Under the pieces are notes generated by a model. That model was not told where the DNA came from and searched no databases. It saw only the letters and a list, made by a program, of their open reading frames with translations. The translations under genes and the position numbers were made by a program. A stretch of 64,000 nucleotides of DNA from Ferruginibacter sp. (lineage in GTDB: Bacteria > Bacteroidota > Bacteroidia > Chitinophagales > Chitinophagaceae): assembly GCA_025350645.1 (NCBI GenBank), contig JANXXM010000164.1, positions 1-64,000 of the forward strand, given 5' to 3'. Of the stretch, positions 27,343 through 29,591 are shown one piece after another. Position 1 is the stretch's first letter, and every line of letters starts with the position of its first letter.

Positions 27343-28035
27343 TTGGATAATTCAAGTATAGACATACGGACTGCAACAGTTGCAGATGTACAATATGCCA
27401 GCACCATTACAGCAGAGATGGAATCATCTGCCAAGGTAAGAGGCACAGGTATAGCTAAAAGATCTTCGGATTATGTGGCTAAAAAAATTACAGAGGGCAA
27501 AGCCGTTATTGCGGTTACCAAAAAAGGCGAATGGGTGGGCTTTTGTTATATAGAAGCCTGGGGCCACGATGCCTTTGTGGCAAATAGCGGCCTCATTGTT
27601 TCTCCGCCTTTTAGAAAAAGTGGCGTAGCAAAAAAAATAAAGGAAAACATTTTTGAGTTATCTAAAAGCATGTACCCTCATGCAAAAATATTTGGGCTTA
27701 CTACAGGCCTTGCGGTAATGAAAATAAACTCAGACCTTGGCTACGAGCCCGTAACCTACAGCGAACTTACAGATGATGACCAGTTTTGGGCAGGCTGCAA
27801 AAGCTGCGTAAATTATGACATACTCATAAGCAAGAATAGAAAAAACTGTATGTGCACCGCTATGCTATACGACCCTGCAGACCATTATGAACCTGCAGAA
27901 ACAGCAGAGGATTTTGAAAAACATTCTAAATTATACGAGCGGTTTATGCGCCTGAAGCAAAGTAAATTTTTAGGATTTTTAAAGCCGCTGCAAAAAGTAA
28001 AGGCGCATTTATTTACAGTATTAAATTTTTATTAA
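27343..28035 (+). CDS. GNAT N-acetyltransferase; candidate N-acetylglutamate synthase given its position next to arg genes (TTG start)
   Basis: 230 aa: DIRTATVADVQYASTITAEMESSA...GLIVSPPFRKSGVAKKIKENIF; begins the arg block. Confidence 0.75.
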   Translation: MDNSSIDIRTATVADVQYASTITAEMESSAKVRGTGIAKRSSDYVAKKITEGKAVIAVTKKGEWVGFCYIEAWGHDAFVANSGLIVSPPFRKSGVAKKIKENIFELSKSMYPHAKIFGLTTGLAVMKINSDLGYEPVTYSELTDDDQFWAGCKSCVNYDILISKNRKNCMCTAMLYDPADHYEPAETAEDFEKHSKLYERFMRLKQSKFLGFLKPLQKVKAHLFTVLNFY

Positions 28036-28225
28036 AAGAAAATATTTACTGCCCCTTAATGGGTTAGGAATTGGTATGGTTTTATTAAACTACACTATAT
28101 AAGCTTAGGTCGTTTAGAAATTTAGTTAAACACTAAATAGCAAATAACTACTAATTATGCTTACAATAGTTTTAAAAAATGCAGGAAGTAATACGGGTAA
28201 AAGTTGAAAATGAATGATGGCTGAG

Positions 28226-28288
28226 CATGGCAGGGGTGGCAGCGAATGCCGCTTTCTTTGAGCGGCAGCAGCGAACAACCCGTGCATG
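28226..28288. other. structured intergenic element (nested hairpin with duplicated GCAGCGAA)
   Basis: CATGgCAgGGG / CCCgTGCATG outer stem, GCAGCGAA direct repeat on both sides of the internal loop, TGCCGC-TTTCTTTGA-GCGGCA inner hairpin. Confidence 0.4.
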
Positions 28289-28379
28289 AAGCTGAAAATT
28301 TTATAAAAGCTGATGCCCCATGTTTTAAAAAATGTATTGGAAGTGATAAATAAAAACGATTACTGTAAAATAAAAGAAG

Positions 28380-29591
28380 ATGATAAAAAAAGTTGTACTT
28401 GGTTTTAGTGGTGGTTTAGATACATCATATTGCGCAAAATATCTTACCAAAGAAAAAGGTTATGAAGTACATTCTGTTGTGGTAAATACGGGTGGTTTTA
28501 CAAAAGAAGAACTGACGCAGATTGAAACCAATGCTTACAACCTTGGCGTAAAAACGCATATTGCTATTGATGCTATAAAAAATTATTACGATACCATTAT
28601 TAAATACCTTGTATTTGGCAATGTGCTAAAAAACAATAGTTACCCGCTAAGTGTAAGCGCAGAGCGGCTTAGCCAGGCTGTAAATATTGCAACGCATGTA
28701 AAAAAAATACAGGCAAATGCGGTAGCGCACGGCAGTACGGGCGCAGGCAACGACCAGGTTCGTTTTGATATGATTTTTAATACCCTCATACCTGGTGTGC
28801 AAATAATAACGCCCATAAGAGATATGCAACTGAGCAGAGAAGCAGAAATAAAATACTTGCAAGACGAAGGTGTGGCAATGAATTTTGAAAAAGCCGCCTA
28901 CTCCATAAACAAAGGTTTGTGGGGCACAAGTGTAGGAGGTAAAGAAACACTGCGGAGTAACGGCATGCTGCCGGAAGAAGCCTGGCCCACACAACTGGAT
29001 GGTACATTGCAACCACAAAATATTAAACTTCATTTTATAAAAGGCGAGTTACTGGCAGTAAATAATAAAACGTTTAACCACCCAAGCGAAGCCATACAAT
29101 TTTTACAGAATATAGCAGCAGCCTACGCTATAGGCAGAGATGTACATGTGGGCGATACCATCATTGGCATAAAGGGGCGTGTAGGTTTTGAGGCCGCTGC
29201 ACCCATGGTAATTTTAAAAGCGCATCATGCCCTGGAAAAACATGTGCTCACCAAATGGCAATTAAATTTAAAAGATAATCTTGCACAGTTTTATGGCAAC
29301 TGGCTGCACGAGGGGCAAATAATGGACCCTGCCATGAGGGATATTGAAGCTTTTTTTACCAGCACGCAGCAGCATGTAACGGGAGATGTATTTGTAGAGT
29401 TAATGCCTTATCGCTTTGTAGTAACGGGCATACAATCTGCCTACGACCTTATGAGCAGCCGCTTTGGCAGCTATGGGGAAATGAATACCGGGTGGACAGG
29501 CGAAGATGTGAGAGGTTTTTCAAAAATATTTGGTAACCAAACCGCAATTTATCACCTCATAAAAAAAGATGCAGATGATACAAAAGATTAG
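28380..29591 (+). CDS. argG: argininosuccinate synthase
   Basis: VVLGFSGGLDTSYCAKYL; AVAHGSTGAGNDQVRFD; GLWGTSVGG. Confidence 0.96.
   Translation: MIKKVVLGFSGGLDTSYCAKYLTKEKGYEVHSVVVNTGGFTKEELTQIETNAYNLGVKTHIAIDAIKNYYDTIIKYLVFGNVLKNNSYPLSVSAERLSQAVNIATHVKKIQANAVAHGSTGAGNDQVRFDMIFNTLIPGVQIITPIRDMQLSREAEIKYLQDEGVAMNFEKAAYSINKGLWGTSVGGKETLRSNGMLPEEAWPTQLDGTLQPQNIKLHFIKGELLAVNNKTFNHPSEAIQFLQNIAAAYAIGRDVHVGDTIIGIKGRVGFEAAAPMVILKAHHALEKHVLTKWQLNLKDNLAQFYGNWLHEGQIMDPAMRDIEAFFTSTQQHVTGDVFVELMPYRFVVTGIQSAYDLMSSRFGSYGEMNTGWTGEDVRGFSKIFGNQTAIYHLIKKDADDTKD

Follow-up and report, generated by a model that had tools for sequence, protein, structure and literature searches.

A divergent Flavo-1 copy upstream of argG in Ferruginibacter sp. 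and its possible nature as a folded DNA element of hosts and phages

Introduction

The Flavo-1 RNA motif was described by Weinberg et al. in 2010 (PMC2864571) and is listed in Rfam as RF01705. It belongs to the most abundant annotated small-RNA families, where it is given without a function (PMC9029176). In F. psychrophilum, Flavo-1 elements lie sense or antisense to transcripts indistinctly; many are outside the transcribed regions and some coincide with 5′ transcribed regions, and the transcript mapping provided no clue to their function (PMC9723704).

Several systems outside the regulatory RNAs invite comparison. The REP, BIME and REPIN sequences, which are associated with the TnpA-REP (RAYT) transposases, are, like Flavo-1, short, dispersed, intergenic and palindromic, and form genome-specific subfamilies. 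The conserved part differs: in REP it is a hairpin with a GTAG foot, whereas Flavo-1 conserves an internal loop and carries interchangeable hairpins. In recombination sites of the attC type, the hairpin is paired almost perfectly by Watson-Crick rules, an unpaired region is conserved and the terminal part varies. Flavo-1 resembles them in general build, by analogy only; neither an integrase nor a cassette array nor RYYYAAC/GTTRRRY boxes are seen. Intrinsic terminators, in turn, can fill the same intergenic slot as Flavo-1 in related genomes, and differ from it by their U-tract and by the absence of the large conserved internal loop.

The window considered here is a stretch of 64,000 nucleotides from a Ferruginibacter sp. 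genome. In the gap between a GNAT gene and argG, the first-pass annotation marked a nested hairpin at 28226-28288 and proposed a structured RNA, a REP-type mobile element or a leader peptide. Judged by its letters and predicted fold, this hairpin is part of a divergent, lineage-specific copy of Flavo-1, a known family without known function.

The element of the window and its family

All the hairpin features were found again on re-reading of the letters. The strand GCAGCGAA is present twice, at 28239-28246 and 28268-28275, and CATG at 28226-28229 can pair with CATG at 28285-28288. Folded as RNA, the segment 28226-28288 reaches -33.4 kcal/mol (z -2.8) and beats 200 of 200 dinucleotide shuffles, and further copies occur elsewhere in the genome (E down to 2.4e-20), so the structure is not due to chance. 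The coordinates were right and the hairpin is real, but the extent was drawn too short: the covariance model alignment passes the noted end at 28288 and reaches 28320, giving a full element of 28224-28320 (Table 1). In the minimum-energy RNA fold of this whole element, the three-stem layout of Flavo-1 appears unaided (z -2.07, a modest value), with P1 formed by GCAT 28225-28228 and ATGC 28313-28316. The CATG/CATG pairing is predicted to be a competing alternative within this larger fold. The core strands pair by GGG/CCC, U-A and G-C, plus non-canonical G.A/A.G steps, and on the family alignment the two GCAGCGAA strands correspond to the conserved internal loop of Flavo-1, GGGATAGnAGCGG on the 5′ side and TAGCGGATAGCCC on the 3′ side.

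Table 1. Features of the Flavo-1-type element and its surroundings in the window, with the phage loci that carry the same element
Feature	Position	Strand	Basis
Whole Flavo-1-type element	28224..28320	+	model R1 from other genomes, end to end; sister copies
Outer stem P1, 5′ strand: GCAT 28225-28228, 2-nt insertion, C28231	28225..28231	+	R1 and minimum-energy fold
Outer stem P1, 3′ strand: GATGC	28312..28316	+	R1 alignment, minimum-energy fold
Conserved core, 5′ strand GGGGTGGCAGCG; family version GGGATAGnAGCG	28233..28244	+	family alignment, R1
Conserved core, 3′ strand CAGCGAACAACCC; family version TAGCGGATAGCCC	28269..28281	+	family alignment, R1
Variable hairpin HP1: TGCCGC 28247-28252 / GCGGCA 28262-28267, 9-nt loop	28247..28267	+	letters, folds
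Second arm HP2: AGCT 28290-28293 / AGCT 28308-28311	28290..28311	+	minimum-energy fold; same place as family HP2
Box U GGTAAAAGTTGAAAATGA, upstream motif common to many own-genome copies	28196..28213	+	motif score 195 vs 127-136 in shuffles
Box D CATGAAGCTGAAAA, overlaps HP2; directly 3′ of the core in most own-genome copies	28285..28298	+	score 227 vs 130-139 in shuffles
20-aa ORF MAGVAANAAFFERQQRTTRA, judged accidental	28227..28289	+	same reading in unrelated sister copies, broken elsewhere
argG (argininosuccinate synthase), downstream, without special link to the element	28380..29591	+	gene-order comparison in congeners
Tailed-phage loci with Flavo-1	L211-L215, L325, L326, L332, L333, L338, L344, L345, L347, L353	opposite to gene	viral contigs

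The gathering threshold of RF01705 is 42 bits. The window region 28150-28380 did not attain it, and the copy was not listed even at E up to 10; it is too divergent for Rfam's own model. The sister copy on C19 exceeds the threshold with 63.3 bits, those on C49 (39.1), C170 (32.7) and C77 (32.6) fall below it, and in the own genome 14 places lie above it, the best at 72.4 bits. An independent model of 93 positions, R1, contains 29 copies from other genomes and none from the own genome. It matches the 64-kb window at 23.4 bits (E 0.0011, the E-values being rough) over positions 1-93 of 93 with all modelled pairs standard, and this is the only good match, as the next one reaches 9.5 bits. The window copy shows that diverged Flavo-1 copies drop below the Rfam threshold, so that copy numbers are underestimated.

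Flavo-1 is common in the phylum Bacteroidota. When bacterial genomes were searched for the core pattern, more than 119 places came up, mostly in Bacteroidota and some in Spirochaetales MAGs, presumably termite-gut ones, as read from the isolate names. The family unit is Y-GCGTKA-GGGATAGnAGCGG (HP1) TAGCGGATAGCCC-GACC (HP2) GG-TMACGCCC-AAA, and conservation ends sharply on both sides. Across the 29 copies, the structure holds in 97.2% of cells against 81.8% in shuffles, and 12 pairs are changed on both sides (0/500 shuffles), although the P1 part of this covariation is helped by selection, the copies having been picked for a complementary P1. Of 171 copies, 89 have A-T and 76 have T-A at the loop pair 13/69, which was not selected for pairing, and none has G-T. 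The covariance model suggested as a check has thus confirmed a structured element through family-wide covariation.

The window copy shares with RF01705 the core strands, the three-stem layout, the variable hairpins and the phylum. It differs by compensated core changes, by the 2-nt insertion in P1 and by a subfamily-specific outer stem, GCAT/ATGC. The core changes, relative to the sisters, are two paired ones, A.G to G.A (28236/28278) and A-U to G-C (28238/28276), and by a rough hand estimate their chance occurrence has a probability under 1/100. The letters read as those of a divergent yet not decayed copy.

Sister copies in the same genome

The genome has a size of 3.6 Mb and is 99% complete; copy counts are taken from the search output. 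The query 28215-28295 gave nine matches, three of them strong, and inspection led to eight true copies of the window subfamily with the conserved arms GCATGGCAGGGATAGCAGCG and ATAGCCCGTGCATGAAGTTGA. Counting the R1 and Rfam matches, about 25 Flavo-1 copies are present in all, which is the many-copies, REP-like outcome of the BLASTN comparison that the first-pass annotation had suggested. HP1 is common to the copies on C3, C170 and C49 and different in those on C19, C77 and C84, and where the sequence between the arms differs among sisters, the hairpin is still able to form a stem. Near-identical arms and HP1 occur at unlinked sites, where the flanks are not homologous once the element and the boxes are passed. 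The subfamily consensus gave no BLAST match in 18 congeners.

The neighbours of these copies, named from sequence, are unrelated genes (alaS, dnaN, smc, pheA, cysD and others). By reading, ten copies are tandem sense, seven or eight tandem antisense and three convergent, and four copies occupy three divergent sites; there is no rule for the orientation of the element relative to genes.

The argG locus

The GNAT-argG gap measures 344 nt in the window. Five congeners with the same gene order have gaps of -1, 5, 11, 12 and 29 nt, and none of them has the element in front of argG. The congeners are distant, the closest ArgG being about 78% identical, so no clean empty site is obtainable. Cis-regulation of argG, one of the earlier proposals, is left unsupported: because the element is missing before argG in the congeners and its sisters adjoin unrelated genes, it is not a private argG switch. 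The two genes that flank the window copy are in tandem; the copy has the sense orientation and is closer to argG than to GNAT. It would be an insertion tolerated in the intergenic gap, with at most an incidental effect on a transcript running from GNAT into argG. Mobility within the genome is suggested by the unlinked near-identical copies, the lack of a consensus match in the 18 congeners and the difference between the 344-nt gap and gaps of -1 to 29 nt.

The leader peptide has practically no chance of being the explanation. Such a peptide, of 20 aa with three Arg codons, would control argG by attenuation, and an ORF with an ATG and a stop does exist at 28227-28289. Its reading, however, follows from the conserved arms and recurs before unrelated genes: almost the same peptide, MAGIAANAAA(F/L)ERQQ.., is read from the copy that precedes pheA (C3) and from the one that precedes an ABC-permease gene (C170), the copy on C156 stops early, and those on C19, C77 and C84 read differently. 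Attenuation is further opposed by the lack of any terminator-like site before argG in 28000-28420.

The gap is also bracketed by a 23-nt imperfect inverted repeat (28012-28034 / 28347-28369, 74% complementary), which may be due to chance in AT-rich DNA.

Composition of the helices

Among about 790 P1 pairs, 4 are G-U and 5 are A-C, and at the HP1 base, with 513 pairs, the numbers are 2 and 13. Seven tRNAs from the same locus set, a small control of 153 pairs, hold 15 G-U and 0 A-C pairs. The share of G-U is therefore 0.4-0.5% in Flavo-1 helices against 10% in the tRNAs, and the helices are nearly pure Watson-Crick. Since RNA stems tolerate G-U, and an inverted repeat present on both strands of DNA gains nothing from it, this scarcity favours a DNA-level reading. 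A strand test, which compares G-U with A-C, seemed to favour the reverse strand; the signal came nearly all from one conserved bulged C of HP1, for which two registers are possible, and was gone once this position was excluded.

Placement near gene ends

The placement of Flavo-1 was assessed on 121 chromosomal copies from other genomes, with genes defined by simple ORF calls. Within 100 nt of the copies, gene 3′ ends are more frequent than 5′ ends (58 vs 25, p 4e-4), and copies near 3′ ends are more often reverse to the gene than in the same sense (38 vs 20, p 0.025). An example of stable placement is the udk-ftsB gap of Flavobacterium, where Flavo-1 occupies one position in the majority of the species examined, its hairpins varying yet staying paired, and three species have another short hairpin instead; with this distribution the gap does not qualify as a clean insertion site. 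Some Flavobacterium copies have stayed in place in many species, which suggests that they have kept a function. At the udk-ftsB site, the core also alternates among species between the internal-loop versions GCTATTCGTT..TTTTCACTnCTATC and GCTTTCGCCTTTATC..GATATCGGCTCTATC.

As for the window element, it is followed by no U-tract, and this rules out the identity of a simple terminator; the search of 28000-28420 for intrinsic terminators was negative.

Flavo-1 in phages

Flavo-1 is present in at least 14 diverse tailed-phage contigs, whose hosts are probably Bacteroidota. It follows a gene of about 550 aa at a distance of 20-60 nt, invariably on the strand opposite to that gene, and its hairpins differ. 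The gene probably encodes the terminase large subunit, as indicated by the match of one member to phrog_2 (terminase large subunit, E 7e-6), a weak match of the gene profile to the terminase structure 4zni (E 0.005) and a fitting gene order; the comparison with Pfam gave no useful match. When sampling started from the terminase-like gene, 16 of 160 loci had Flavo-1, and 16/16 had it in the same slot and strand, in a sample that comprises two closer groups of the gene and some loci from contigs of the Flavo-1-first set. Where relatives lack Flavo-1, the slot often holds an ordinary terminator-like hairpin. The fixed slot and strand behind the terminase-like phage gene are a new observation.

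The element also occurs between genes in two contigs of Microviridae, i.e., single-stranded DNA phages: OM869667.1:1434-1534 (L216), which is annotated as Microviridae, and L335:2321-2414, which is assigned to them by a pilot-protein-like gene only. BLAST of the consensus against plasmids and against phages gave only one partial match each, but searching viral contigs by pattern and by model was productive; the exception was the reverse-type Flavobacterium pattern, for which nothing was found there.

What kind of element Flavo-1 may be

Flavo-1 resembles folded DNA carried by hosts and their phages more than it resembles a regulatory RNA. The family-wide tests favour a quasi-palindrome at the DNA level, through the near absence of G-U pairs, the loop pair that is never G-T and the location near gene 3′ ends, often reversed; the F. 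psychrophilum copies outside transcribed regions point the same way. The favoured reading, in which belief and doubt are about evenly balanced, is that the window element is a divergent copy of a family maintained as folded DNA and spreading as small non-autonomous units. Flavo-1 would be read and maintained as a cruciform or a single-strand hairpin, its mismatched internal loop would be bound by a putative protein, and copies would spread within the genome. Some results count against this reading. Folded as plain DNA, the window copy does no better than shuffles (z -0.70), although as RNA it reaches the z of -2.07 given above; Rfam's own model passes over the window copy; no mobilising enzyme was found; and the Flavobacterium copies that keep their place in many species suggest a retained function. 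The proposal of a REP-type element is confirmed in one half, as many dispersed intergenic palindromic copies exist, and fails in the other: the Y1 transposase (PF01797) is absent from the own genome. In the phylum, a Y1 gene is present in 15 of 20 high-copy Flavo-1 genomes and in 174 of 248 Bacteroidota overall, five high-copy genomes are without it, and Flavo-1 is not associated with REP-type Y1 transposases. It is therefore very improbable that a Y1 tyrosine transposase moves the hairpins in the manner of a REP/RAYT system, even if these are short dispersed palindromic repeats and a Y1 subclass of Bacteroidota (2.6) is flanked by atypical secondary structures (PMC6006769).

The main rival to folded DNA is the use of Flavo-1, including the window copy, as a transcript boundary, where folded 3′ ends stop transcription or protect mRNA ends and are interchangeable with ordinary terminators. 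The preference for 3′ ends and the reverse orientation, the replacement by another hairpin at udk-ftsB and the terminator-like hairpins of phage relatives all fit such a role. Tolerated insertions would sit near 3′ ends as well, and the window copy, with neither a U-tract nor a terminator-like site around it, stands in sense orientation and closer to argG; the proposal is considered unlikely. A structured RNA, as the Rfam name implies, would be an sRNA or a cis element of UTRs, with the window copy acting in the argG transcript. The conserved internal loop, the strong covariation, the RNA fold scores of both hairpin and whole element, the compensated changes in the window copy and the 5′ transcribed copies of F. 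psychrophilum speak for it. This is nevertheless slightly less likely still, as tRNA stems are 10-20 times richer in G-U pairs, the own-genome copies follow neither gene orientation nor a gene theme, the element is missing before argG in other species, and transcript mapping in F. psychrophilum was uninformative as to function.

A wider form of the folded-DNA reading is tentative, possible though more doubted than believed: Flavo-1 would be primarily a folded DNA site, carried by hosts as a proliferating repeat, by tailed phages downstream of the terminase gene, always in one position and on one strand, and by microviruses between genes; with a protein that recognises its mismatched internal loop, it would act in DNA processing, packaging or transcript insulation. 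If Flavo-1 is a DNA site, many sRNA annotations are misleading. Its function can be approached by three handles, namely the G-U-free helices, the placement at gene 3′ ends and the fixed slot behind the phage terminase-like gene.

Boxes beside the own-genome copies

The copies of the own genome differ from Flavo-1 by two extra boxes, U and D, the one resembling the other: ATAAAAGTTCAAAAATG upstream, in most copies some 34 nt ahead of the core, and ACAAATGTTGAAAAAT downstream, directly after the core. In the window copy, box U and the core are about 10 nt closer together than elsewhere in the genome. The downstream-box pattern has six occurrences in the genome, five of them at known Flavo-1 copies, and a match away from the listed copies, C65:28407-28427, may be an unlisted or decayed copy. 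At C9:81185-81490, between a gene and alaS, two Flavo-1 copies stand in opposite orientation about 100 nt apart.
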